DNA of 64,000 bases from Burkholderiales bacterium. GTDB lineage: Bacteria; Pseudomonadota; Gammaproteobacteria; Burkholderiales; SHXO01. The stretch spans positions 62,001 through 126,000 of the forward strand of contig JADZGB010000031.1 of the NCBI GenBank assembly GCA_020854105.1, read 5' to 3'. Positions within the stretch are counted from its first letter, which is position 1. Every line of letters starts with the position of its first letter. Positions 2,510 through 27,799 of this stretch are shown piece after piece. Under the pieces are notes generated by a model. It ran no database searches. It was not told the DNA's origin and was given only the letters and a program-made list of their open reading frames with translations. The position numbers and the translations under genes were made by a program.

Positions 2510-3826
2510 TCAACGCAGCAGGAGGTCGGGAAGCCAGGTCGCCAGGCCGGGGACGAGCATTACCAGCGCCAGCATGAGCAGTCCCATCAGCACGTAGGGC
2601 GTGACCGCGCGGAAGATCTGCGCCATCGTGATGTGCTTCGGCGCGACGCCGCGCATGGTGAACAAGAGCATGCCGAAGGGCGGGGTGAGCAGGCCCAGCT
2701 GCATGCAGATCAGGTACATCACGCCGAACCACAGCGGTTCGAAGGCGTAGTAGTGCACCAGCGGCATGTAGAAGGGCAGCGTGACGAGCATCATGCTGAC
2801 CTGGTCGACAAAGCAGCCGAGCAGGAGCAGGATCGCCAGCATGCCGAGCAGCACCACCCAGGGCTGCAGCGCCGCGTCGCGCACCAGCCCGACCAGGCCG
2901 TCGGTGGCGCCGGAGAAGGACAGGACCTGGGCGAAGGTGGTGGCGCCGACGATGATGAACAGGATGACGCCCGAGATGGCGGCCGTGCCGAGCAGCGATC
3001 TGGTCAGGCTGCGCAGCGTCAGCGCGCGATAGGCCAGCGCGACGATCATGGTGGCGAGCGCTCCGAGCGCCGCCGATTCCGTGGGCGTGGCCCAGCCTGC
3101 GGACATGGCCGCGATCACCGCGATGAAGATCAGCACCAGCGGCGTGACGTGCACCACCAGGGGCTTCCAGCGCGCCCATCCGCGTACCGGCGCATGCTCG
3201 AAGCGCGGCGCGAGCTTCGGGTCCAGGCTCGCGCGCAGCACGATGTAGGCGACGAACATGGCCGCGAGCAGGATGCCGGGCACCACGCCGGCGACCAGCA
3301 GGCCGCTGATGGAGATGCCCGCGAGGCTGCCCAGCAGCACGGTGAGCGCCGAGGGCGGAATCAGCATGTCGACGCCGCCGATGGCCATGATCGGCCCGGT
3401 CGCCATGCCCGGGTGATATCCCCGGCGCAGCATTTCCGGCAGCAGCAGGCTGCCGAGCAGCGCGGTGGTGGCCACGGTCGATCCGGAGATGGCCGAGAAG
3501 ACGGTGCCGGCGACGACTGCAATGACCGCGAGCCGCCCGGGCACGCGCCAGATCAGGTGATCGAAGGCATCGATTGCCTTCATCGCGATGCCGGTGTGGA
3601 ACAGCACCTCGCCCATGAGCACGAAGAACGGGATGGGCGTGAGCGAGAAATTGGTGACCGCGCCCAGACCGTTGCGCACGACCTGCATGAGACCGGCTTC
3701 GCCGCCCATGTACATGAGAGCGCCGATCAGGTTCACCGCCAGGAAGGCGAAGGCCGCGGGCAATCCGAGCAGCAGCAGCAGGGAGAGCAGGCCGAACAGG
3801 AAAACGAGCGTCTGCCACCAGTGCAT
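2510..3826 (-). CDS. dctM: TRAP transporter large permease subunit (DctM)
   Basis: A 438-residue polytopic membrane protein with the DctM signature (IPFFVLMGEVLFHTGIA near residue 65 and a GGVDMLIPPSALTVLLG segment). It is the channel-forming subunit of a tripartite ATP-independent periplasmic transporter that imports organic acids with sodium or protons. The reading frame is open further upstream, but the ATG at 3826 is chosen because it overlaps the dctQ stop as TGATG and gives a normal N-terminus (MHWWQTLVFLFG). The small and binding-protein subunits lie directly upstream. Confidence 0.9.
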   Translation of the reverse strand: MHWWQTLVFLFGLLSLLLLLGLPAAFAFLAVNLIGALMYMGGEAGLMQVVRNGLGAVTNFSLTPIPFFVLMGEVLFHTGIAMKAIDAFDHLIWRVPGRLAVIAVVAGTVFSAISGSTVATTALLGSLLLPEMLRRGYHPGMATGPIMAIGGVDMLIPPSALTVLLGSLAGISISGLLVAGVVPGILLAAMFVAYIVLRASLDPKLAPRFEHAPVRGWARWKPLVVHVTPLVLIFIAVIAAMSAGWATPTESAALGALATMIVALAYRALTLRSLTRSLLGTAAISGVILFIIVGATTFAQVLSFSGATDGLVGLVRDAALQPWVVLLGMLAILLLLGCFVDQVSMMLVTLPFYMPLVHYYAFEPLWFGVMYLICMQLGLLTPPFGMLLFTMRGVAPKHITMAQIFRAVTPYVLMGLLMLALVMLVPGLATWLPDLLLR

Positions 3827-15469: not shown

Positions 15470-15727
15470 ATCCAGAAGCAGTGAAGTGCCCTTTCGTTTG
15501 CGCTGGGCATCGGCATTCGCCGGGGCGACGGAATTTGGTCATGCAGTCATGCGGCGGGCGGCTACGCCTCGGGCAGGACCCTACTCCTTTGTGACTATCC
15601 CCGTCGTCCGAATGGCCGATCGGACTAGGTCTTCTTCGTCGTGACAGCGTCCATTCGCCGAATAGGCCGCGCGCCGGCCGATCCGTATTCTCTCACTCGC
15701 GTGCTGGAAGAATCTCGGGAGAAAACG
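15470..15727 (+). promoter_or_regulatory. narK1 upstream region with repeat copy 3 and putative regulator sites
   Basis: It contains a dispersed-repeat copy (15481-15532), then a TACTCCT heptamer at 15582-15588 that fits the NarL consensus TACYYMT. An inverted repeat follows: GTCCGA (15606-15611), 8 nt, TCGGAC (15620-15625). The right arm continues into CGGACTAGGTC (15621-15631), the exact reverse complement of GACCTAGTCCG before narX. No FNR-type TTGAT-N4-ATCAA box was seen. I infer nitrate-responsive control. Confidence 0.5.
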
Positions 15728-16978
15728 GTGGCCACGCTACGGACCAAGCAGATATCGGTGCTGATCGCCAGCACCCTCGCCTTCACCGTGTGCTTCATGG
15801 TGTGGATGATGTTCGGCGTGATCGGTATCCCGATCAAGAAGGCGCTCGACCTGAACGCGACCCAGTTCGGCATCCTGACGGCCATGCCGGTGCTGACCGG
15901 ATCCCTGATCCGGGTGCCGCTGGGCATGTGGACCGACAAGTACGGCGGTCGCATCGTCCTTTTCCTGCTGATGCTGGCGACCGTCGTGCCGATCTGGCTC
16001 ATCTCGTATGCGACCGAGTTCTGGCACTTCATCGTGCTCGGTCTCTTCGTCGGACTGGCGGGTGGCTCGTTCTCGGTGGGAACGCCCTACGTGGCGCGCT
16101 GGTTCGAGCGCGGCCGGCAGGGCTTCGCCATGGGTGTGTTCGGCGCGGGCAACTCCGGTGCGGCCGTCACCAAGTTCGTCGCGCCCGTCCTGGTGGTGGC
16201 CTACGGCTGGTTCGTCGTCCCCAAGGTGTTCGCGGCGGCGATGCTGATCACGGCGCTGCTGTTCTGGTTCGGATCCTACAGCGATCCCGCTCACCGGATC
16301 GATTCGCGCGTGAGCTGGCGCCAGCAGCTCGCCGCGATGCGCGACCCCAACGTCTGGAAGTACTCGCAGTACTACTCCATCGTATTCGGCGGCTACGTCG
16401 CGCTCGCGCTGTGGATGACGCAGTACTACGTGGGCGAGTACGGCTTCGACATCCGCTTCGCCGCGCTGCTCGCGGCCTGCTTCTCGCTGCCCGGCGGCGT
16501 GCTGCGCGCGGTCGGCGGCTGGCTCTCGGACAAGTACGGCGCGCATCAGGTGACCTGGTGGGTGCTGTGGGTGAGCTGGATCTGCCTGTTCCTGCTGTCC
16601 TACCCGCAGACGCAGTTCACCATCATGACGGTCGACGGGCCGGCCACCTTCCACGTCGGACTCGGACCGTGGGCATTCACCGCCCTCATGTTCGTGATGG
16701 GCATGGCCTGGGCCTTCGGCAAGGCCTCGGTGTTCAAGTACATCTCGGACGACTACCCGCACAACATCGGCGTGGTGTCGGGCATCGTCGGCCTGGCCGG
16801 CGGCCTGGGCGGCTTCGTCCTGCCGATCGTGTTCGGAATGCTGGTGGACCTGACCGGCATCCGTTCCAGCTGCTTCATGCTGATGTACGGAATCGTCTGG
16901 GTCTCGCTGATCTGGATGTACTTCACCGAGGTACGGCGCACGCCGGTCATGGGACCGCGCGCCGTGGACGCCGCCTGA
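15728..16978 (+). CDS. narK: NarK1-type nitrate/proton symporter
   Basis: A 416-residue, twelve-TM major facilitator of the nitrate/nitrite porter family. It has the glycine-rich signature GLAGGSFSVGTPYVARW near residue 115 and a second nitrate-signature segment (GIVGLAGGLGGFVLPIVFG) near residue 350. NarK1 types bring nitrate in with protons to start respiration. The GTG at 15728 is chosen because GGGAGA lies 7 nt upstream and the first TM follows normally; a GTG at 15641 would add 29 residues and would place the start beside the putative operator. narK2 follows after 58 nt. Confidence 0.88.
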   Translation: MATLRTKQISVLIASTLAFTVCFMVWMMFGVIGIPIKKALDLNATQFGILTAMPVLTGSLIRVPLGMWTDKYGGRIVLFLLMLATVVPIWLISYATEFWHFIVLGLFVGLAGGSFSVGTPYVARWFERGRQGFAMGVFGAGNSGAAVTKFVAPVLVVAYGWFVVPKVFAAAMLITALLFWFGSYSDPAHRIDSRVSWRQQLAAMRDPNVWKYSQYYSIVFGGYVALALWMTQYYVGEYGFDIRFAALLAACFSLPGGVLRAVGGWLSDKYGAHQVTWWVLWVSWICLFLLSYPQTQFTIMTVDGPATFHVGLGPWAFTALMFVMGMAWAFGKASVFKYISDDYPHNIGVVSGIVGLAGGLGGFVLPIVFGMLVDLTGIRSSCFMLMYGIVWVSLIWMYFTEVRRTPVMGPRAVDAA

Positions 16979-17036
16979 CCGCGGCGGTCCGCACGAGAGT
17001 CGCCTGACGCAACGCGGTCAACGAGGAGTCGAACTC

Positions 17037-18449
17037 ATGAGCACAGACACCATCCCGCAGCCCCGGGGACGGACCATCAGGATCTGGACCCCCGAGGACA
17101 AGGCGTTCTGGGAGAAGGAAGGCGAGGCGGTGGCCCGCCTGAACCTGTGGATCTCGGTCCCCTGCCTGTTCCTGGCCTTCGCCATCTGGCAGCTATGGAG
17201 CGTGGCTGCGGTCAATCTTCCCGCGCTCGGCTTCACGCTCAACACCAACCAGCTGTTCTGGCTCGCCGCCGCGCCCGCGCTGTCGGGTGCGACGCTGCGC
17301 ATCTTCTACTCGTTCATGGTCCCGATCTTCGGCGGCCGGCGCTGGACCGCCATCTCGACCGCCAGCCTGCTGATCCCCGCGATCGGCATCGGCGTCGCGG
17401 TGCAGGACAACAGCACGACCTTCCCCACGCTGCTGGTGCTCGCGCTGCTGTGCGGTCTGGGCGGGGGCAACTTCTCCTCGTCGATGGCCAACATCAGCTT
17501 CTTCTTCCCGAAGGAGCGCAAGGGCTCGGCCCTGGGCGTGAATGCGGGCCTGGGCAATCTGGGCGTCTCCTCGGTCCAGTTCCTCGCGCCGCTGGTGGTC
17601 ACCATGCCGATCTGGGTGGCATTCGGCGGCGAGGCCCAGACCATCGTGAACAAGGCCGGGCAGGCGGTGCAGATCTGGCCCCAGAACGCGGCCTTCGTCT
17701 GGGTGCCGTTCATCGCCATCGCCGCCTTCTTCGCCTGGTTCGGCATGAACGACATCGCCGATGCCAAGGCCTCGTTCGCCGATCAGGCGGTGATCTTCAA
17801 GCGCAAGCACAACTGGCTCATGTGCTGGCTCTACCTCGGCACCTTCGGTTCGTTCATCGGCTATGCCGCCGGCTTCCCGCTGCTGATCAAGTCGCAGTTT
17901 CCGGATGTCAACGCGCTGCAGTTCGCCTGGATGGGTCCGCTGGTGGGTGCGCTGATCCGTCCGGTGGGCGGCTGGCTGGCCGACAAGCTGGGCGGCGCGC
18001 GCGTGACCTTCTGGAATTTCATCGTGATGGCCGCGGCGGTCGCTGGCGTCCTGTACTTCCTGCCTTCCGGTCCTTCGCAGGGCAGTTTCACCGGCTTCCT
18101 GGTGATGTTCATGCTGTTGTTCCTGACCACCGGCATCGGCAACGGCTCGACGTTCCGCATGATCCCGGTTATCTTCCTGAACGAACGCACCGCCGGCATC
18201 TCGGCCAAGGGTTCGCCCGAATGGGATCAGGCGGTCAAGGCCGGGAACAAGGAGGCGGCCGCCGTGCTCGGCTTCTCCGGTGCCATCGGGGCCTACGGCG
18301 GCTTCTTCATACCGAAGAGCTATGGCAGCTCCATCGCCATGACCGGCGGTCCCGAGATGGCGCTCTACTGCTTCATCGTCTTTTACGCGAGCTGCATCGC
18401 GGTCACGTGGTGGTACTACTCGCGCCGCCACGCACCGATGCCGTGCTGA
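17037..18449 (+). CDS. narK2: NarK2-type nitrate/nitrite antiporter
   Basis: A 470-residue nitrate/nitrite porter with the NarK signatures GLGGGNFSSSMANISFFFP near residue 140 and GFSGAIGAYGGFFIPKSYG near residue 415. These lie in the TM5 and TM11 positions, where conserved glycines line the substrate path. NarK2 types exchange cytoplasmic nitrite for periplasmic nitrate. The N-terminus carries about 35 polar residues before TM1. AGGAG lies about 8 nt before its ATG. It is followed after 16 nt by narG, consistent with one narK1-narK2-narGHJI transcript. Confidence 0.92.
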   Translation: MSTDTIPQPRGRTIRIWTPEDKAFWEKEGEAVARLNLWISVPCLFLAFAIWQLWSVAAVNLPALGFTLNTNQLFWLAAAPALSGATLRIFYSFMVPIFGGRRWTAISTASLLIPAIGIGVAVQDNSTTFPTLLVLALLCGLGGGNFSSSMANISFFFPKERKGSALGVNAGLGNLGVSSVQFLAPLVVTMPIWVAFGGEAQTIVNKAGQAVQIWPQNAAFVWVPFIAIAAFFAWFGMNDIADAKASFADQAVIFKRKHNWLMCWLYLGTFGSFIGYAAGFPLLIKSQFPDVNALQFAWMGPLVGALIRPVGGWLADKLGGARVTFWNFIVMAAAVAGVLYFLPSGPSQGSFTGFLVMFMLLFLTTGIGNGSTFRMIPVIFLNERTAGISAKGSPEWDQAVKAGNKEAAAVLGFSGAIGAYGGFFIPKSYGSSIAMTGGPEMALYCFIVFYASCIAVTWWYYSRRHAPMPC

Positions 18450-18465
18450 AACAGGGAACTCACGC

Positions 18466-21400
18466 ATGTCTCATTTCCTCGACCGCCTCACCTTCTTCAC
18501 CAGGGACCAGTCGAACTTCTCGGGCGGCCACGGCGTGGTCACCAACGAGGACCGCACCTGGGAAGACGGTTACCGCAAGCGCTGGCAGCACGACAAGATC
18601 GTGCGCTCCACCCACGGCACCAACTGCACCGGGTCGTGCAGCTGGAAGATCTACGTCAAGGGCGGGGTGGTGACCTGGGAGACCCAGCAGACCGACTATC
18701 CGCGCACCCGTCCCGACATGCCGAACCACGAGCCGCGCGGCTGTGCGCGCGGCGCGTCCTACTCGTGGTACCTGTACAGCGCGAACCGCCTCAAGTACCC
18801 GATGGTGCGCGGCCGCCTGATCCGCCTGTGGCGCGAAGCGCGCAGGATGCTCGGACCGGTCGATGCATGGGCCTCGATCGTGACCGACCCGGTGAAGGCC
18901 CGGTCCTACAAGGCCGGCCGCGGCATGGGCGGCTTCGTGCGCTCGAGCTGGGACGAGGTGCAGGAGATCATCGCGGCGGCGAACGTCCACACCATCCGGC
19001 AGCACGGACCGGATCGCATCATCGGCTTCTCGCCCATTCCGGCGATGTCGATGGTGTCCTACGCGGCGGGCTCGCGCTACCTCTCGCTCATCGGCGGGGT
19101 GAGCATGAGCTTCTACGACTGGTACTGCGACCTGCCGCCGTCGAGCCCGCAGACCTGGGGCGAGCAGACCGACGTCCCGGAATCGGCCGACTGGTACAAC
19201 TCCACCTACCTGATCGCCTGGGGTTCGAACGTGCCGCAGACGCGCACGCCGGACGCGCATTTCTTCACCGAGGTGCGCTACAAGGGGGCGAAGGTGGTGG
19301 CGGTCACGCCCGACTACGCCGAGGTCGCCAAACTGGCAGACCTGTGGCTGCACCCCAAGCAGGGGACCGACGCGGCGCTCGCGATGGCGATGGGCCACGT
19401 GATCATGAAGGAGTTCCACGTCGAGCGGCAGGCGCCGTACTTCACCGACTACGCGCGGCGCTACACCGACATGCCGCTGCTGGTGAAGTTGACGCGGCGC
19501 GGCGATCACCATGTCGCCGACCGCTTCCTGCGGGCGAGCGACCTGCCGGGCGCGCTCGGCCAGGCCAACAACCCGGAGTGGAAGACGCTTGCCTTCGACC
19601 AGACCAGCGGCGACCTGGTGGTGCCCAACGGGGCCGTGGGCTTCCGCTGGAACCAGAAGGAAGGCGAGGACCTGGGCAAGTGGAACCTCGAGGCCAGGGA
19701 GGCGGGCGGCAAGGACGTGCAGTTGCGCCTGTCGCTGGCGGAGGCGCGCGACTGCGTCGCGGCGGTGGCCTTCCCGTATTTCGGCGGTATCGCCCACGAG
19801 TTCTTCCAGCACAACGACCAGGGCGGCGAAGTCCTGCTGCGCAACGTGCCTGCGCGAACGCTGAAGCTGGCCGATGGCGAGACGCTGGTCACCACCGTGT
19901 TCGATCTGCTCGCCGCCAACTACGGCGTCGACCGGGGCCTGGGCGACCACTGCCCGAAGTCCTATGACGAGGACAAGCCCTACACGCCGAAGTGGCAGGA
20001 GTCGATCACCGGCGTGCCGGCCGAGCACGTGATCACGGTCGCCCGCCAGTTCGCCGAGAACGCCGAGAAGACCGGCGGCAAGTCGATGGTGATCATCGGC
20101 GCGGCAATGAACCACTGGTACCACAGCGACATGAACTACCGCGCCATCATCAACATGCTGATGATGTGCGGATGCATCGGCCAGTCCGGCGGCGGCTGGG
20201 CCCACTACGTCGGGCAGGAGAAGCTGCGGCCCCAGACCGGCTGGACCGCTCTCGCCTTCGCGCTCGACTGGCACCGCCCGCCGCGCCAGCAGAACTCCAC
20301 TTCCTTCTTCTACGCCCACACCGACCAGTGGCGCTACGAGAAGCTCAAGATCGACGAGATCCTCTCGCCGGTCGCCGATGCGAAGGACTTCGACGGCAGC
20401 TTCATCGATTTCAACGTGCGCGCCGAACGCATGGGCTGGCTGCCTTCCGCACCGCAGCTCAAGACCAACCCGTTGCAGGTGTGCCGGGACGCGGCCGCGG
20501 CTGGCATGGATCCCAGGGCCTACGCGGTGAAGGGACTGAAGGACGGCAGCCTCAGTCTGTCGTGCGAGGATCCGGACGATCCGGCCAACTTCCCGCGCAA
20601 CATGTTCGTGTGGCGCTCGAACATCCTGGGGTCCTCGGGCAAGGGCCACGAGTACTTCCTCAAGCACCTGCTGGGCACCACCCACGGCGTGCAGGGCAAG
20701 GACCTCGGTGCCGGAGACGCGAAGCCACAGGAGGTCGTGTGGCACGAGCAGGCACCGGAAGGCAAGCTCGACCTGCTGGTCACCCTGGATTTCCGCATGA
20801 GCACCACTTGTCTGTACTCGGACATCGTGCTGCCCACCGCGACCTGGTACGAGAAGAACGACCTCAACACCTCCGACATGCACCCCTTCATCCATCCGTT
20901 GTCCACGGCGGTGGATCCGGCCTGGGAAGCCCGCTCGGACTGGGAGATCTACAAGGGCATCGCGAAGAAGTTCTCGGAGATCGCCGACGGCCATCTGGGC
21001 GTGGAGAAGGAACTGGTGCTCACGCCGCTGATGCACGACACGCCGGCCGAACTGGCGCAGGCGATGGACGTGAAGGACTGGAAGAAGGGCGAGTGCGAGC
21101 TGGTGCCCGGCAAGACCGCGCCGCAGATGACGGTGGTCGAGCGCGACTACGTGAACACCTACAGGAAGTTCACCGCGCTCGGTCCGCTGATGATCGAGGC
21201 CGGCAATGGCGGCAAGGGCATCGCCTGGAACACGGAGCACGAGGTGAAGAACCTCGCCGAGTTGAACCAGGTGGTGAACGAACTCGGTGTGAGCATGGGT
21301 CTGCCGAGGATCGAGACCGACATCGACGCGGCGGAGGTCATCCTGATGCTGGCGCCCGAGACCAACGGCGAAGTCGCCGTCAAGGCCTGGGACGCGCTGT

Positions 21401-22206
21401 CGAAGATCACCGGCCGCGAGCACCAGCACCTGGCCATTCCGCGCGAGGACGAGAAGATCCGCTTCCGCGACGTGCAGGCGCAGCCGCGCAAGATCATCTC
21501 CTCTCCCACCTGGTCGGGCATCGAATCCGAGCGCGTGAGCTACAACGCCGGCTGGACCAACGTGCACCAGCTGATCCCGTGGCGCACGCTCACCGGCCGC
21601 CAGCAGTTCTACCAGGACCACAAATGGATGCTGGGCTTCGGTGAAGGATTGTGCGTGTACCGCCCGCCGGTGGACACGCGCGCCATCGGCGAGATGGCCG
21701 GCGCGCGGCCGAACGGCAACCCGGAGCTGCTGCTCAACTTCATCACGCCGCACCAGAAGTGGGGCATCCACAGCACCTATACCGACAACCTGCTGATGCT
21801 GACGCTCTCGCGCGGCGGACCGATCGTGTGGCTGTCCGAGAACGACGCGCGCGAGGGCGGCATCGAGGACAACGACTGGATCGAGCTGTTCAACGTCAAC
21901 GGCTCGATCACCGCGCGCGCGGTGGTTTCGCAGCGGGTGAAGGACGGCATGGTGATGATGTACCACGCGCAGGAGAAGATCGTGAACGTTCCCGGCTCCG
22001 AGATCACCGGCACGCGCGGCGGCATCCACAACTCGGTCACCCGCGTGCTGGTCAAGCCAACCCACATGATCGGCGGCTACGCTCAGCTGAGCTACGGCTT
22101 CAACTACTACGGAACGATCGGGACGAACCGCGACGAGTTCGTGGTGGTGCGCAAGATGGCCAAGGTGGACTGGATGGATGCGCCAGCGGCGTCCGTCGGC
22201 GCCTGA
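18466..22206 (+). CDS. narG: Respiratory nitrate reductase alpha subunit NarG
   Basis: A 1246-residue molybdopterin oxidoreductase, the full NarG length. The N-terminal FS0 [4Fe-4S] site is seen as HGTNCTGSCSWKIYVKGG near residue 50, with its His ligand and Cys residues. The Mo-bis-MGD pocket includes WYNSTYLIAWGSNVPQTRTPD, with the conserved Asp expected to ligate Mo. A second hallmark, GGGWAHYVGQEKLRPQTGW, is mid-protein. No Tat leader is apparent at the N-terminus (MSHFLDRL), so the enzyme faces the cytoplasm. It reduces nitrate to nitrite, receiving electrons from NarH and NarI. It is followed by an unusual 142-nt spacer. Confidence 0.97.
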   Translation: MSHFLDRLTFFTRDQSNFSGGHGVVTNEDRTWEDGYRKRWQHDKIVRSTHGTNCTGSCSWKIYVKGGVVTWETQQTDYPRTRPDMPNHEPRGCARGASYSWYLYSANRLKYPMVRGRLIRLWREARRMLGPVDAWASIVTDPVKARSYKAGRGMGGFVRSSWDEVQEIIAAANVHTIRQHGPDRIIGFSPIPAMSMVSYAAGSRYLSLIGGVSMSFYDWYCDLPPSSPQTWGEQTDVPESADWYNSTYLIAWGSNVPQTRTPDAHFFTEVRYKGAKVVAVTPDYAEVAKLADLWLHPKQGTDAALAMAMGHVIMKEFHVERQAPYFTDYARRYTDMPLLVKLTRRGDHHVADRFLRASDLPGALGQANNPEWKTLAFDQTSGDLVVPNGAVGFRWNQKEGEDLGKWNLEAREAGGKDVQLRLSLAEARDCVAAVAFPYFGGIAHEFFQHNDQGGEVLLRNVPARTLKLADGETLVTTVFDLLAANYGVDRGLGDHCPKSYDEDKPYTPKWQESITGVPAEHVITVARQFAENAEKTGGKSMVIIGAAMNHWYHSDMNYRAIINMLMMCGCIGQSGGGWAHYVGQEKLRPQTGWTALAFALDWHRPPRQQNSTSFFYAHTDQWRYEKLKIDEILSPVADAKDFDGSFIDFNVRAERMGWLPSAPQLKTNPLQVCRDAAAAGMDPRAYAVKGLKDGSLSLSCEDPDDPANFPRNMFVWRSNILGSSGKGHEYFLKHLLGTTHGVQGKDLGAGDAKPQEVVWHEQAPEGKLDLLVTLDFRMSTTCLYSDIVLPTATWYEKNDLNTSDMHPFIHPLSTAVDPAWEARSDWEIYKGIAKKFSEIADGHLGVEKELVLTPLMHDTPAELAQAMDVKDWKKGECELVPGKTAPQMTVVERDYVNTYRKFTALGPLMIEAGNGGKGIAWNTEHEVKNLAELNQVVNELGVSMGLPRIETDIDAAEVILMLAPETNGEVAVKAWDALSKITGREHQHLAIPREDEKIRFRDVQAQPRKIISSPTWSGIESERVSYNAGWTNVHQLIPWRTLTGRQQFYQDHKWMLGFGEGLCVYRPPVDTRAIGEMAGARPNGNPELLLNFITPHQKWGIHSTYTDNLLMLTLSRGGPIVWLSENDAREGGIEDNDWIELFNVNGSITARAVVSQRVKDGMVMMYHAQEKIVNVPGSEITGTRGGIHNSVTRVLVKPTHMIGGYAQLSYGFNYYGTIGTNRDEFVVVRKMAKVDWMDAPAASVGA

Positions 22207-22348
22207 AGAACCTTCGCCACAGAGGACACAGAGGGCACGGAGATGATCTTGACGATTCGAAGTTGTCGGCATCTTTCCCCAGTTGGAGCTCGAACTTCTC
22301 TGTGTTCTCTGTGCCCTCTGTGGCAAAACGCCCTTCGGAGTCATTAGC
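22207..22348. repeat. narG-narH spacer carrying an inverted pair of CACAGAG repeats
   Basis: The spacer has GCCACAGAGGACACAGAGG (from 22216) and, 80 bp later, its near reverse complement CTCTGTGTTCTCTGTGCCC, running on to CTCTGTGGC (22296-22324). The pair could fold into a long hairpin within the nar mRNA. A second pair of the same family separates narH and narJ (23876-24040). It resembles a small non-coding mobile repeat rather than a gene. The narH ribosome-binding site (GGAG) lies just downstream. Confidence 0.7.
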
Positions 22349-23869
22349 ATGAAAATCCGCGCGCAGATCGGCATGGTGCTCAACCTGGACAAGTGCATCG
22401 GATGCCACACCTGTTCGGTCACCTGCAAGAACGTCTGGACCTCCCGCGAGGGAATGGAGTACGCCTGGTTCAACAACGTCGAGACCAAGCCCGGCATCGG
22501 CTACCCGAAGGAATGGGAGAACCAGGACCGCTGGCAGGGCGGCTGGACGCGCAAGGCCAACGGCTCCATCGAGCCCAGGATCGGCGGCAAGCTGAAGGTG
22601 CTGATGAAGATCTTCGCCAACCCGCACCTGCCCGAGATCGACGACTACTACGAGCCCTTCACCTTCGATTACGAGCATCTGCACAAGGCGCCGGAGATGA
22701 AAGCCGCGCCGGTGGCGCGTCCGCGCAGCCTGATCAGCGGGCAGCGCATGGAGAAGATCGAGTGGGGTCCGAACTGGGAAGAGATTCTCGGCGGCGAGTT
22801 CTCCAAGCGCTCGAAGGACGCCAACTTCGAGGCGGTGCAGAAGGACATCTACGGGCAGTTCGAGAACACCTTCATGATGTACCTGCCGCGCCTGTGCGAG
22901 CACTGTCTGAACCCGGCGTGCGTGGCGGCCTGCCCGTCCGGCTCCATCTACAAGCGCGAGGAGGACGGCATCGTCCTCATCGATCAGGACAAGTGTCGCG
23001 GCTGGCGCATGTGCGTGTCGGCCTGCCCCTACAAGAAGATCTACTATAACTGGCAGTCGGGCAAGGCCGAGAAGTGCATCTTCTGCTATCCGCGCATCGA
23101 GGCGGGCCAGCCGACGGTGTGCTCGGAGACCTGCGTCGGCCGCATCCGCTACCTCGGCGTGCTCCTCTATGACGCGGATCGCATCGAGCAGGCGGCCTCG
23201 GCCGCCGATCCGCAGGATCTCTACCAGGCGCAACTGGACGTGTTCCTGAATCCGCATCTGCCCGAGATTCAGGAGCAGGCGCGCCGCGACGGCGTTCCGG
23301 ATGCCTGGATCAAGGCCGCGCAGCAGTCGCCGGTGTACAAGATGGCAATGGAATGGAAGATCGCCTTCCCGCTGCATCCGGAATACCGCACCCTGCCGAT
23401 GGTCTGGTACGTGCCGCCGCTCTCGCCGATCCAGTCGGCCGCGAATGCGGGAGACGTCGGCAGCTTCGGCCAGCTGCCCGACGTGCGCAGCCTGCGCATT
23501 CCGGTGCGCTACCTCGCCAACCTGCTCACCGCGGGCGACGAGGCACCGGTCACTACCGCGCTGGAACGCATGCTCGCCATGCGCGCGTACATGCGCGATC
23601 GCCATGTGGACCGGCGCGAGAACAGCGAGGTGCTGCGTCAGGTGGGCATGAGCGAGGGTGAGGTCGAGGAGATGTACCGCTACCTCGCGATCGCGAACTA
23701 CGAGGACCGTTTCGTCATCCCGACCACGCACCGCGAGTACGCCGAGAACGCCTTCGACCTGCGCGGGGGCTGCGGCTTCTCCTTCGGCAACGGATGCTCG
23801 GACGGCACCAGCCAGACCAGCCTGTTCGGCGGCAAGAAGCGCAAGACGATTCCGGTCAAGGCAATCTGA
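22349..23869 (+). CDS. narH: Respiratory nitrate reductase beta subunit NarH
   Basis: A 506-residue iron-sulfur subunit with four ferredoxin-like cysteine groups: CIGCHTCSVTC near the N-terminus, CEHCLNPACVAACP near residue 185, CRGWRMCVSACPYKK, and CIFCYPRIEAGQPTVCSETC. In the third group a Trp replaces the second Cys, the known NarH feature giving one [3Fe-4S] and three [4Fe-4S] clusters. It passes electrons from NarI heme to NarG. The ATG at 22349 is chosen because GGAG is 9 nt upstream; the frame upstream of it belongs to the repeat. Confidence 0.96.
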   Translation: MKIRAQIGMVLNLDKCIGCHTCSVTCKNVWTSREGMEYAWFNNVETKPGIGYPKEWENQDRWQGGWTRKANGSIEPRIGGKLKVLMKIFANPHLPEIDDYYEPFTFDYEHLHKAPEMKAAPVARPRSLISGQRMEKIEWGPNWEEILGGEFSKRSKDANFEAVQKDIYGQFENTFMMYLPRLCEHCLNPACVAACPSGSIYKREEDGIVLIDQDKCRGWRMCVSACPYKKIYYNWQSGKAEKCIFCYPRIEAGQPTVCSETCVGRIRYLGVLLYDADRIEQAASAADPQDLYQAQLDVFLNPHLPEIQEQARRDGVPDAWIKAAQQSPVYKMAMEWKIAFPLHPEYRTLPMVWYVPPLSPIQSAANAGDVGSFGQLPDVRSLRIPVRYLANLLTAGDEAPVTTALERMLAMRAYMRDRHVDRRENSEVLRQVGMSEGEVEEMYRYLAIANYEDRFVIPTTHREYAENAFDLRGGCGFSFGNGCSDGTSQTSLFGGKKRKTIPVKAI

Positions 23870-24055
23870 TGCGTTGCCACAGAGGGCACAGAGAACACAG
23901 AGAAACCGAGCCGATTCATGGCAGAGACACCCGATCAGCACTGCCGGACCGCCGTGTGTCCACTGCGGCTGGAGCCTCATGAAGATGAAAAGCTCCGAAT
24001 CTACCGACGACCTCTTTGTGGCCTCTGTCTCATCTGTGGCTAACGACTCTCAGCG
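23870..24055. repeat. narH-narJ spacer carrying a second inverted pair of CACAGAG repeats
   Basis: GCCACAGAGGGCACAGAG (from 23876) is answered by CTCTGTCTCATCTGTGGC, ending at 24040. The 165-bp element lies inside the nar operon and contains no credible gene. Together with 22207-22348 it shows the same repeat family placed twice between genes that are normally nearly adjacent. Confidence 0.68.
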
Positions 24056-24688
24056 ATGAAAACCTTCAAGGCACTCGGCGCCCTGCTCGCCTATCCCACG
24101 CAGGAACTGATCGAAGCCCTGCCCGATCTGTACGCGGCGATCGTGGAGGATGCCCTGGTGCCGCGCCCGCAACGCGACGAACTCAAGCCGCTCCTGCACT
24201 GGATGAGCGGGCAGGATCTGCTCGACCTGGAGGAGCAGTACGTGGAATTGTTCGATCGGGGCCGCGCCACGTCGCTGCACCTGTTCGAGCACGTGCACGG
24301 CGAATCGCGCGACCGCGGACAGGCGATGGTCGACCTGAAGCAGCTCTACCAGAGCGCAGGCCTGCAGCTGGCGCCGCACGAGCTGCCCGACTTCCTCCCG
24401 GCGATCCTGGAGTACCTGTCGTTCCGGCCGCTGCCGGAGGTGAACGATATGATCGGCGACTTCGCCCACATCCTGCGCAGCGTCGGCGCACAGCTGAGAA
24501 AGCGCCGCAGCGGCTACGCGGCCGTCCTCGCAGCCGTGCTCGCGGCAGCGGGCGAAGCGCAGTTCGACGAGGCGTCCGCACAGCCGGTCGCGGAGAAGAG
24601 CATGGACGAGGAGTGGGCGGAAGAGCCGGTGATCTTCGGTCCGGCAGCGGCGCCGGCCTGCGGCAAGCCGACCACGCCGCTGCGGTGA
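24056..24688 (+). CDS. narJ: Nitrate reductase assembly chaperone NarJ
   Basis: A 210-residue helical protein of the NarJ/TorD-like family, which binds the NarG N-terminus and gates insertion of the Mo cofactor and FS0 cluster. Recognisable segments are LGALLAYPTQELIEALPDL, LEEQYVELFDRGRATSLHLF (then EHVHGESRDRG) and LPDFLPAILEYLSF. The C-terminal ~40 residues are acidic and Ala/Pro-rich. It is separated from narI by 373 nt of tandem repeats instead of the usual overlap or short gap. Confidence 0.92.
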   Translation: MKTFKALGALLAYPTQELIEALPDLYAAIVEDALVPRPQRDELKPLLHWMSGQDLLDLEEQYVELFDRGRATSLHLFEHVHGESRDRGQAMVDLKQLYQSAGLQLAPHELPDFLPAILEYLSFRPLPEVNDMIGDFAHILRSVGAQLRKRRSGYAAVLAAVLAAAGEAQFDEASAQPVAEKSMDEEWAEEPVIFGPAAAPACGKPTTPLR

Positions 24689-25061
24689 ATGAGGACGAGG
24701 TCGTGCAGGCGGGTGCCCTTCGTCCGCCCCGGCGGGAGCCGCAGCCGGCGCATACCCAGGTGCCCTTCGTCGCCCGGCGAAAGCCGCAGCCCGGCGCAGA
24801 CACAGGTGCCCTTCGTCGCCCGGCGAAAGCCGCAGCCCGGCGCAGACACAGGTGCCCTTCGTCGCCCCGGCGAAAGCCGCAGCCCGGCGCAGACAGAGGT
24901 GCCCCTTCGTCGCCCCGGCGGAAGCCGGGGCCCGGCGCAGACAGAGAAAGGCCCTTCTCCGTTTCCGCTGGATCCCGGCTTGCGCCGGGATGACGGGATG
25001 ACGGGATGACGGGATGACGGGATGGTACTGAATCACGAATCACGAACAAAGAGGCAACGCC
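24689..25061. repeat. Tandem array of 46-47-bp repeats between narJ and narI (copy 4)
   Basis: Five units follow head to tail (about 24712-24758, 24759-24804, 24805-24850, 24851-24897, 24898-24944). Each begins GGTGCCCTTCGTC and contains a palindromic CGGCGAAAGCCG-like core. A longer degenerate unit (GATCCCGGCTTGCGCCGGG) follows, and then four perfect copies of GGGATGAC (24987-25018). The units have no variable spacers, so this is not a CRISPR array. It sits within the nar operon and could form repeated hairpins in the mRNA. The narI ribosome-binding site (GAGG) is at its right edge. Confidence 0.8.
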
Positions 25062-25736
25062 ATGAATCAGTTTCTCTTCGGGATCTACCCCTACATCTGT
25101 CTGGCGGTCTTCTTCATCGGCAGCCTGCTGCGCTTCGACCGCGAGCAGTACACCTGGCGCAGCGGCTCGTCCCAGCTGCTGCGTGCCCGGCAGCTCAGAA
25201 TCGGTTCGAACCTGTTCCACGCGGGGGTCCTGTTCCTGCTGTTCGGGCACTTCTTCGGGATGCTCACGCCCCACTGGGCCTACGAGCACTTCCTCAGCGC
25301 CGGCAGCAAGCAGCTGATCGCGATGGTGACCGGCGGCATCGCGGGCGTGCTGGCCCTGATCGGGCTGACCGTCCTGCTGCACCGGCGCCTGAGTGACGAG
25401 CGCATCCGCGCCACCAGCAGCGGCATGGACATCGCCCTGCTGCTGATCCTGTGGGTGCAACTCGCGCTCGGTCTGGCCACGGTCCCGCTCTCGGGACAGC
25501 ACCTGGACGGCAGCGTGATGCTGCTGCTGGCCGAATGGGCGCAGCGGGTGGTGACCTTCCGCCCGGGCGCGGCGGAACTGCTCGCGGAAGTATCCTGGGT
25601 GTTCAAGCTGCACATCTTCCTGGGTTTGACGATATTCCTCGTATTCCCGTTCGGCCGGCTGGTGCACATCTGGAGCGGGCTGGCTTCGGTGGGATACCTC
25701 GCCCGGGCCTACCAGATCGTGCGGCAGCGGGGCTAG
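25062..25736 (+). CDS. narI: Respiratory nitrate reductase gamma subunit NarI
   Basis: A 224-residue, five-TM cytochrome b that oxidises quinol at the periplasmic side and passes electrons to NarH. The four axial heme-b histidines are visible in pairs: LFHAGVLFLLFGHFFGM near residues 50-65 and VFKLHIFLGLTIF with RLVHIWS near residues 185-205. Length is standard. It is followed after 16 nt by an MCP-tip-like gene. Its distance from narJ is unusual because of the repeat array. Confidence 0.95.
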   Translation: MNQFLFGIYPYICLAVFFIGSLLRFDREQYTWRSGSSQLLRARQLRIGSNLFHAGVLFLLFGHFFGMLTPHWAYEHFLSAGSKQLIAMVTGGIAGVLALIGLTVLLHRRLSDERIRATSSGMDIALLLILWVQLALGLATVPLSGQHLDGSVMLLLAEWAQRVVTFRPGAAELLAEVSWVFKLHIFLGLTIFLVFPFGRLVHIWSGLASVGYLARAYQIVRQRG

Positions 25737-25752: not shown

Positions 25753-26358
25753 ATGCCGGAGAGGAACAGCAGCGCCGCGGCGGCGCTCGCCCGCGTCGTA
25801 CTGATCAACGAGGACATCAAGCAGGTCGTGCGCAGCGCGTTCGCCATCAACCTGATGGCGCTCAACGCCATACTGGTGGCGCGCCGCGCCGGCACTGCCG
25901 CCGCCGGCTTCGGCGTGGTGGCGGGCGAGATGCGCGAGCTGAGCACCTCCCTCGAAGGCTGCATGGCAGGCTTGCGCCGCCTCTCCGACGATCTGCTGGC
26001 CAGTGTCACGCGCGCCATGCGCCATGGCCGGGTCGAGCGCATCCTGATCCGCTCGGCCGGGCTGGGCGAGGCAGCACGCATCCACCTCGATCCCGTCCTG
26101 CAGCGCTCGGGCGGGCGGGCGCGTGCCATCGCGCGCGAGATCGACGGCCAGTGCGCGCACCTGCTGGAGGACGTGGAATCGGCCGTTCGCATCAGCCGCA
26201 TGGCGGACAGCCTGGCGCACATGGCGAAGATCGAGGCCTCCTGGTCATCGGACCGCGCCGGTCTGGCCACCGTGTCGGACGAGCTGGCACAGTCGCTGCG
26301 CGGCATCCTGCCCCCGCTCCAGGCACTTTCCGCGAAGCTCAGGGAGATCCGTCAGTGA
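25753..26358 (+). CDS. Soluble protein with a methyl-accepting-chemotaxis-protein-like tip segment
   Basis: A 201-residue helical protein without membrane segment or signal peptide. Residues ~28-70 resemble the hairpin tip of chemoreceptor signalling domains (FAINLMALNAILVARRAG, then GFGVVAGEMRELS), although the usual AAIEAARAG core is altered to AILVARRAG. The rest is predicted coiled coil. GGAG precedes the ATG, and its stop overlaps the next start in GTGA fashion, tying it to the diiron protein downstream. It could present a signal to CheA/CheW or be a decayed receptor fragment used for another role. I do not know a named family for it. Confidence 0.7.
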   Translation: MPERNSSAAAALARVVLINEDIKQVVRSAFAINLMALNAILVARRAGTAAAGFGVVAGEMRELSTSLEGCMAGLRRLSDDLLASVTRAMRHGRVERILIRSAGLGEAARIHLDPVLQRSGGRARAIAREIDGQCAHLLEDVESAVRISRMADSLAHMAKIEASWSSDRAGLATVSDELAQSLRGILPPLQALSAKLREIRQ

Positions 26359-27104
26359 AGGCTGCCAGGACCATCTATCAGAACGGCGGACATCGCTGGA
26401 TCGTGATCACCCGGGATCCGGCACGCCCCGACTATCTGATCGATACCAACGAATACCTGATCACCGACGGCGAACGATCGCTGCTGTGCGACCCGGGCGG
26501 CTCGGAGATCTTCCCCGCCGTGTTCGCCACGATCAGCAGCGAGTGCAACCCCCGCGACATCGTCTCGGTGTTCTCCTCGCACCAGGATCCCGACATCATC
26601 TCCTCGCTGGCCCTGTGGCTGGAGTTCAACCCGGACATCAGGTGCTATGCGAGCTGGCTGTGGACCGGCTTCATCCCGCACTTCGGCGGCACGCGCGAGA
26701 CCTTCATATCGATACCCGACGAGGGCATGCCGATCGAGCTCGGCCGGCTCGAGATGGACGCGGTACCAGCGCACTACCTGCATTCTTCCGGCAACTTCCA
26801 CCTGCACGACCCGGCCGCGCGCATCCTGTTCTCGGGCGATGTGGGCGCTGCGCTGCTGCCGGCCGATGCCGACATCTTCGTCACCGATTTCGATCGCCAC
26901 ATCCGGCAGGCCGACGCCTTCCACCGGCGCTGGATGGGATCCAACGAGGCCAAGCGCGACTGGTGCGAGCGCGCCGCCCGGCTGGAGATCGACATGCTGT
27001 GCCCGCAGCACGGAGCCATCTACCAGGGCCAGGACGTGCAGCGCTTCATCAACTGGTTCGACGAGCTCCACGTCGGGGTCGTCGGCAGACCGAGCAAGGA
27101 TTGA
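26355..27104 (+). CDS. Metallo-beta-lactamase-fold diiron protein (oxygen-binding ODP-like)
   Basis: A 249-residue protein matching the N-terminal diiron domain of flavodiiron proteins but lacking the flavodoxin domain. Metal-ligand motifs are seen in order: SSHQDPDIIS (His-x-Asp-x-Asp), PAHYLHSSGNFHLHD, LFSGDVGAAL and CPQHGAIYQG. Stand-alone proteins of this type (ODP) bind oxygen at a diiron site and have been linked to bacterial chemotaxis. The GTG start overlaps the stop of the MCP-like gene. I infer an O2- or NO-responsive sensor pair placed in the nar operon; NO or O2 reduction without a flavin domain is less likely. Confidence 0.78.
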   Translation: MKAARTIYQNGGHRWIVITRDPARPDYLIDTNEYLITDGERSLLCDPGGSEIFPAVFATISSECNPRDIVSVFSSHQDPDIISSLALWLEFNPDIRCYASWLWTGFIPHFGGTRETFISIPDEGMPIELGRLEMDAVPAHYLHSSGNFHLHDPAARILFSGDVGAALLPADADIFVTDFDRHIRQADAFHRRWMGSNEAKRDWCERAARLEIDMLCPQHGAIYQGQDVQRFINWFDELHVGVVGRPSKD

Positions 27105-27106
27105 CC

Positions 27107-27799
27107 ATGCCTCCCATGCAGACCGACACGCCCTCCGCCAGCCTGGTGCGCGACCTGCTCGCACGCCGCGCCATCGCGCTCGGTCTCGCCGATGCCGGAC
27201 CGGAGGACAGCGTCCCGGATGCGGCCATCGAGCGCCTGCTGGAACAGGAGGTGCGCACCCCGGAGCCGACCGAAGAGGAATGCAGCCGCTACTACACGGT
27301 GCATGAAGACGAGTTCGTGGTCGGGGAGCTGGTCGCTGCCAGCCACATCCTGTTCGCGGTGACGCCCGGTGCGCCGGCCGTGCTCATCCGCACCAAGGCC
27401 GAGCAGGTGCTCGCACGGCTGGGCGGCGAGCCGGAGGCCTTCGCCGAATGCGCTGCCTCCATGAGCAACTGCCCCTCCGGCAGCCAGGGCGGGCAGCTCG
27501 GGCAGCTCTCGCGTGGCCAGTCCGTGCCGGAGTTCGAGCAGGCGCTGTTCGATGCCTCGCGGCCTGCCGGCATCCTGCCGCGCCTGGTCAACACCCGCTT
27601 CGGCTTCCACATCGTGCGCATCGACCAGCGCATCGCCGGCAAGGCATTGCCATACGAGCACGTGCGCACCCGCATCGCCGAGCAGTTGACCGAACGCGTG
27701 CAGCACAGTGCCCTGGTGCAGTACGTGCGCGTGCTGGCCGGCGAGGAAGGCACGACAGTGCCGGGCATCGACGCGGCGACCTCGCCGCTGGTGCAGTAG
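27107..27799 (+). CDS. Parvulin-type peptidyl-prolyl isomerase (PpiC/NifM-like)
   Basis: A 230-residue protein with a C-terminal rotamase domain: VAASHILFAV near residue 85, CPSGSQGGQLGQLSRGQSVP near residue 125 and FGFHIVRIDQRI near residue 165 are the parvulin core strands. An N-terminal helical part precedes it. No signal peptide is seen, so it probably acts in the cytoplasm, where it may assist folding of NarG/NarH; such genes often follow narGHJI in denitrifying betaproteobacteria. It starts 3 nt after the diiron gene at ATG 27107. Confidence 0.88.
   Translation: MPPMQTDTPSASLVRDLLARRAIALGLADAGPEDSVPDAAIERLLEQEVRTPEPTEEECSRYYTVHEDEFVVGELVAASHILFAVTPGAPAVLIRTKAEQVLARLGGEPEAFAECAASMSNCPSGSQGGQLGQLSRGQSVPEFEQALFDASRPAGILPRLVNTRFGFHIVRIDQRIAGKALPYEHVRTRIAEQLTERVQHSALVQYVRVLAGEEGTTVPGIDAATSPLVQ

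Follow-up and report, generated by a model that had tools for sequence, protein, structure and literature searches.

Muok and colleagues are said to have described, in 2019, an ODP together with the cytoplasmic receptor TDE2496 in Treponema denticola. According to the available excerpt of one report (PMC7666581), the T. denticola ODP is a chemotaxis oxygen sensor, and the MCP coupled to it, which lacks sensor and membrane parts, modulates CheA; this excerpt and that of a second report (PMC7319448) indicate that the pairing of an ODP with a receptor is already known. In the available part of Mowery et al. 2015 (PMC4692393), each receptor dimer has one subunit turned towards the trimer axis and a second one able to reach CheA and CheW; for the engineered single-chain Tsr~Tsr, the trimer contacts are ascribed to one subunit and possible contact with CheA/CheW to the other. 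The same text refers to uncharacterised, natural, soluble single-chain receptor proteins and states that they had no known function at the time (2015).

The window, i.e. the whole stretch of 64,000 nucleotides analysed here, carries on its plus strand, where the other genes and the MCPf repeats located below in the window also lie, a gene for a soluble, putatively double-tip receptor-like protein of 201 aa, named MCPf here (25753..26358, ATG start), followed by a gene for an ODP-family diiron protein of 249 aa with a metallo-beta-lactamase fold (26355..27104; assigned by PF19583, PDB match, and metal-site residues). The ODP start codon GTG (26355-26357) overlaps the MCPf stop codon TGA (26356-26358) in the sequence GTGA, and the translational coupling proposed in the first-pass annotation stands. 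MCPf begins 16 nt after the end (25736) of narI (25062..25736; PF02665, E = 5.9e-78). The remainder of the presumed operon, narK1-narK2-narG-narH-narJ, occupies 15641..24688 (narG, narH, and narJ identified by Pfam and narK by reading the sequence), and the next gene after ODP encodes a PpiC/NifM-like peptidyl-prolyl isomerase (27107..27799). The narJ-narI gap contains five 46-nt tandem copies and 4.9 copies of CGGGATGA (24712-24943, 24986-25024), a repeat array that is unusual inside a nar operon. A second full-length NarI is encoded elsewhere in the same genome (contig C43:368611-369276), yet there is one ODP. In a congener (G003; L031 2004-8620), ODP and ppiC are about 6.6 kb apart, with NnrS-like and TonB-receptor-like ORFs (named by reading) in the stretch between them; immediately ahead of ppiC is a piece that matches ODP residues 97-138. 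Both in the window and at another locus, L130, the pair is followed by PpiC and then by a carbonic-anhydrase-like gene; at L130 (9411-14111) these are followed by a MoeA-like ORF (the last two names by reading), with no nar genes in reach.

The ODP protein matched PF19583 over residues 29-220 (E = 2.1e-71; 240.2 bits vs a cut-off of 27.2), and its closest solved structures were 6qrq (E = 1.6e-64) and 6qnm (E = 1.7e-55), both described as 'Oxygen-binding diiron protein', which upholds the earlier identification of an ODP-like diiron protein. His/Asp residues at positions 76, 78, 80, 109, 140, 143, 162, and 219 are common to the window ODP, 6qrq, and 6qnm, and these eight metal-site positions are kept in 81 of 81 sequences; the iron ligands we take to be among them. 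The protein stands alone, with no flavodoxin match at E<=1 in the Pfam search of its 249 aa.

The first MCP tip of MCPf, a hairpin at residues 22-65 (repeat 1; 25816..25947), was identified by Pfam, hhalign, and the residue table. The Pfam MCPsignal domain (PF00015) covers these residues with E = 6.2e-8, and the score of 33.1 bits lies narrowly below the Pfam cut-off of 34.6, so that MCPf is not classed as a canonical MCP. The match spans only positions 38-82 of the 172 positions of the Pfam profile and, together with the predicted helices (see below), gives no sign in MCPf of the long hairpin in which methylation helices flank one tip. Among the aligned family members, 76 of 78 match MCPsignal at E<=0.01, the family profile matches solved MCPs with E = 6e-12, and hhalign matches repeat 1 to canonical MCP tips at 99.2%. 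The family profile also aligns to 3ur1 and 4jpb, the latter titled as a ternary complex of CheA P4-P5, CheW, and a Tm14 fragment. The MCP-like hairpin that the first-pass annotation saw in the 201-aa protein is thus confirmed, and its MCP similarity is supported by profile searches.

That earlier reading overlooked that the C-terminal half of MCPf holds another MCP tip, a diverged one, at residues 145-185 (repeat 2; 26185..26307), which is indicated by a C-half profile and a register test. In an alignment of 78 MCPf sequences, Glu161 (codon 26233-26235) is the sole invariant column; it lies within the consensus LARSAKIEAAYGG, which reads like the MCP tip motif LALNAAIEAARAGE. (This alignment leaves out L128, L060, and L084, the last being intact by eye, and includes L105 and L111 with starts placed too far in.) The C-half profile was built from C-terminal halves only (36 sequences, residues about 105-199). 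Searched against 100 relatives, it gave 11 strong matches (E<=2.1e-14; the window counted), all 11 directly upstream of ODP. Another 11 matches, in frames of 491-687 aa, were weak (E 2.7e-5 to 7.7e-4); those whose alignments were listed fall on the MCP tip. Across the class, a sample of 274 genomes searched at E<=1e-8 gave 12 places in 11 genomes (the window counted), every one beside ODP. As judged from these matches, the second tip goes together with the ODP partnership.

In the register test, Glu161 fell on the Glu that is conserved at MCP tips in the best-scoring alignments of 30 of 31 non-redundant MCPs (mean 12.2 bits), compared with none of the 31 for the reversed profile (mean 1.8 bits) and a mean of 0.8 (maximum 12) of 31 for 30 heptad-preserving shuffles. 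The MCPs were taken from all loci by a tip pattern requiring Glu, and eight of the 31 had been fetched because they matched; when these eight were removed, 22 of 23 remained in register, vs 0/23 with the reversed profile. Comparison of the C-terminal half with canonical tips by hhalign was weak (probability 13%), and repeat-to-repeat comparison of the two halves of MCPf gave no convincing match (probability 0.5%). In two sets of 300 column shuffles, none reached the score of 20.6 observed between the C-terminal half and the tips, whereas the column-reversed half reached 16.8, and composition thus explains part of the score. Because hhalign was weak and the reversed profile scored this high, the register test was taken as decisive for the second tip. 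These comparisons show, at the level of sequence, that MCPf carries two MCP tips in one chain.

MCPf is predicted to fold as a single-chain four-helix bundle. AlphaFold (AF2) models of the window MCPf (pLDDT 95.2, pTM 0.87) and of a family member from a che cluster (pLDDT 93.4, pTM 0.83) contain helices at residues 3-102, 106-163, and 168-200 and at 7-103, 107-163, and 167-199, respectively. Both models aligned best with designed single-chain four-helix bundles, i.e. the window MCPf with 8d9o (Z 18.7, 1.8 A over 172 residues) and the che-cluster member with a designed bundle (Z 17.1, 1.9 A, 170 residues); 1yo7, a ROP dimer re-engineered to one chain, followed with Z 14.4 (116 residues) and 13.8 (117 residues), respectively. 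By DSSP, residues 3-102 of the window MCPf form one helical run, which must hold the first hairpin because the bundle alignments need four helices; we infer the turn of this hairpin from those alignments and from homology. A predicted turn near 164-167 coincides with the hairpin expected from repeat 2, and the predicted helix lengths and bundle alignments would fit both tips at the same end of the bundle. In a Foldseek search, the MCPf model had no match at E<=0.001, and chemoreceptor cytoplasmic domains ranked low (2ch7 at 22 and 1qu7 at 34), which could be expected should a single chain mimic a dimer; the absence of chemoreceptor domains from the VIA structure-alignment lists is evidence neither way. 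That the bundle fold is shared shows no function by itself. With two apparent tips and a predicted complete bundle, MCPf is probably better read as a complete miniature receptor, and the label 'fragment' given to it in the first-pass annotation is probably wrong.

Positions in the two repeats are given in what we take to be the corresponding Tsr numbering. Repeat 1 keeps N376, L377, A379, L380, N381, A382, R388, G390, F396, V398, E402, and R404 in most of the 78 sequences; it has L/I/V in place of the trimer-contact Glu, E385, and K/R in place of A387. Repeat 2 keeps L378, A379, A382, I384, E385 (78 of 78), A386, and A387, with L380 changed to R/K, N381 to S, R388 to Y, F396 to L, V398 to Q, and R404 to D/E. 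As described in excerpted literature, an ionic lock pairs E385 of one dimer with R388' of another, and F396 residues stack there (PMC8144572), and E402/R404 form a further salt bridge that stabilises the trimer (PMC6746300). By these residue tables, repeat 1 holds coupling residues and also some trimer residues, with the two partners of the lock divided between the repeats. This division suggests that each half of MCPf has a fixed place, and either may be the inner one. We give an even chance to a fuller version of this idea, in which MCPf would be a natural miniature single-chain chemoreceptor whose fused dimer subunits divide the labour, which occurs only alongside ODP and which acts as an adaptation-free plug-in of the array; it draws on the coupling-type residues and the lock Arg kept in repeat 1 and on the lock Glu kept in repeat 2.

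Among 100 genomes, which include that of the window and belong mostly to the same order, 29 hold an ODP. Wherever the ODP is at least about 61% identical to that of the window (11 of 11 loci), an MCPf ORF of about 200 aa overlaps it or ends no more than 16 nt before it. A wider scan, from which the best 80 of 559 relatives were kept, gave a tblastn match of the window MCPf upstream of ODP in 75 of the 80 loci. The remaining five comprise L117, L121, and L123, which are diverged members that align with the family; L128, where the contig begins 141 nt before ODP, too close for MCPf to be scored; and L060. At the last (2993-3514, from a metagenome bin), the ORF before ODP is without both tip segments and keeps the rest of the protein, which may be a real loss or an assembly artefact. 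At 78 loci, the MCPf stop and the ODP start overlap by 4 nt in 32 cases and by 1 nt in 4, lie 0-30 nt apart in 41, and lie 52 nt apart in 1. By record title, the hosts among the best 80 of 559 are mostly Rhodocyclales, Gallionella, and other Betaproteobacteria, as well as Methylococcales and other Gammaproteobacteria; the few records that bear the names Myxococcales or Leptospirales in their titles are bins from metagenomes. At 18 loci with more distant ODPs (L012, L014-L030), those of L016 and L017 follow an MCP-like ORF of 412-421 aa with an apparent membrane segment; at the others, a crude pattern recognised no receptor ORF directly upstream, L029 being a weak partial ODP match. The pair is thus conserved in Beta- and Gammaproteobacteria, and the lack of conservation that the first-pass annotation had named as a refutation did not occur.

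The chemotaxis link suspected earlier was corroborated by gene neighbourhoods. The pair lies inside a che cluster in 16 of the best 80 of 559 loci, typically in the order cheA-MCP-cheW-MCPf-ODP-cheR-cheD-cheB, and at least two further relatives (L032 and L034) have much the same placement; the other 64 of these 80 are outside a che cluster as scored, many of them being limited by contig ends. A CheW domain is present in all 29 genomes with ODP vs 49 of the 71 others (Fisher p = 3e-4, a value that ignores relatedness), with CheW being common anyway (78 of 100 genomes). The genome of the window has six CheW-domain matches, five full MCP matches in addition to MCPf, and two flagellin matches.

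The nar location is much rarer. Nineteen of 28 ODP genomes matched a NarI profile, and NarI lies beside the pair in only two of them, i.e. the genome of the window and its congener; nar genes are near the pair at 1 of the best 80 of 559 loci (L079), where the pair, one ORF, narK1, narK2, and narGHJI follow each other on one strand. The nar location is therefore taken as local capture. The role in nitrate respiration put forward in the first-pass annotation does not hold as a general rule, and conservation of the pair in other nar operons, which had been suggested as a check, extends only to the genus of the window and L079. PpiC follows the pair also in L101 and L130. Homologues of FNR and HemN were present in the fetched stretch at 21 of the best 80 of 559 loci, none of them among the 16 che loci. 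FNR boxes were not enriched before MCPf (<=1 mismatch in 4 of 63 non-che loci vs 3.7% of 1409 control windows), although a few clear sites exist, e.g. at L084, L122, and L079. FNR control of the pair was accordingly rejected, and no regulation is claimed from the frequent FNR/HemN neighbourhood.

We consider the pair, with a probability of about 0.6, to be a cytoplasmic gas-sensing plug-in for chemosensory arrays, for which we infer docking, CheA control, the ligand, and co-expression from the operon. ODP would bind O2, perhaps NO, at its diiron site and dock on MCPf, a single chain that would be folded like the tip of an MCP dimer, with two hairpins head to tail and no membrane, HAMP, sensor, or methylation helices. 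MCPf would need no homodimerisation, being a dimer tip already. Because repeat 1 keeps the lock Arg and repeat 2 the lock Glu, it could take up a place within or next to a receptor trimer and meet CheA/CheW in one set orientation, and CheA activity would then change with the ligand state of ODP. By analogy with T. denticola, and given how often the pair lies in a che cluster, its most likely role is to feed O2 information into the array from the cytoplasm; in a denitrifier, NO may plausibly be a second ligand. In the window, the pair would have been captured by the narK1K2GHJI operon and would therefore be made while nitrate respiration is on, reporting nearby O2 (or NO) to the cell.

Other explanations account for parts of these data. 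MCPf might be a kinase-side decoy or cap that competes with real receptors for CheA/CheW, or belong to a non-flagellar Che-like pathway, with ODP gating the competition, as its tip-only form without methylation helices and the coupling-type residues retained in repeat 1 would allow; we regard this as unlikely, since a trimer Glu that never varies in repeat 2 points to genuine trimer contacts and since we read the che clusters, which contain cheR, cheD, and cheB, as flagellar. An enzymatic role, in which ODP would scavenge O2 or NO like the diiron half of a flavodiiron protein and protect nitrate reductase, its partner being a scaffold or an electron-partner adaptor, draws on the intact metal site, the weak family match of ODP to flavorubredoxin, and the position after narI in the genus of the window. 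It is quite improbable, however, given that neither protein matches a flavodoxin or redox domain in Pfam, that the partner is an MCP tip and no redox protein, and that many relatives have the pair in a che cluster.

The distribution described above also weakens the reading with which the first-pass annotation ended, a signalling pair tied specifically to nitrate respiration: the operon position in the window genome and G003, the one-strand arrangement at L079, and PpiC after the pair in L101 and L130 speak for it, but only 2 of 19 NarI-bearing ODP genomes have NarI beside the pair and only 1 of the best 80 of 559 loci has nar genes in reach, which makes it very unlikely. That MCPf is a degenerate MCP remnant, kept only through translational coupling, is scarcely credible; the short Pfam match and the lack of membrane, HAMP, and methylation parts would be expected of a remnant, whereas its length and both tips are kept across 77 aligned relatives, one column is invariant and others nearly so, and a complete fold is predicted with confidence, and the idea is contradicted by this conservation.

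The gas-sensing plug-in would have wider implications. Arrays place two identical subunits at the trimer axis and at the periphery, and it has taken engineered fusions to tell the two roles apart (PMC4692393, in excerpt); if the reading is true, a natural chain with the roles already separated would show which tip residues each position needs. It would give a probable sensor input to the class of natural soluble single-chain receptors mentioned in that excerpt and extend ODP oxygen sensing to common denitrifying and microaerobic Proteobacteria. The pair looks like a plug-in sensor for oxygen steering by swimming bacteria. Our literature search, with Muok 2019, Li 2013, and Wuichet 2010 outside its scope, recognised no double-tip receptor paired with an ODP and no MCP gene inside a nar operon, for neither of which absence from print is claimed. 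As far as the literature searched shows, the miniature double-tip form, the splitting of conserved residues between the halves, and the strict link with ODP are new; an earlier notice in Muok 2019 is possible.

The locus resembles the T. denticola ODP/TDE2496 system, as excerpted, in that the genes of an ODP-family sensor and of a soluble MCP devoid of sensor and membrane parts are coupled; it differs in that the T. denticola partner is an MCP homolog that modulates CheA, whereas the partner here is a protein of about 200 aa with, apparently, two tips per chain. Tm14 of Thermotoga maritima (3g67; tip in 4jpb and 3ur1), the best PDB sequence match of the MCPf profile, is likewise soluble, of similar size (213 aa), and has an MCP tip. 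Position 4 of the profile matches Tm14 residue 65, and the single tip of Tm14 thus lies near its middle; in MCPf, by contrast, the first tip is at residues ~30-63 and the second in the C-terminal half. The natural soluble single-chain receptors of PMC4692393 are likened to MCPf by description, not by sequence, and the excerpt mentions no link to ODP. MCPf finally shares with Tsr~Tsr, as presented in the same excerpt (Mowery et al. 2015), the joining of two receptor subunits in one chain; Tsr~Tsr, however, is engineered, full length, and membrane bound with identical halves, whereas MCPf is natural, consists of the tip only, and has halves that have diverged.
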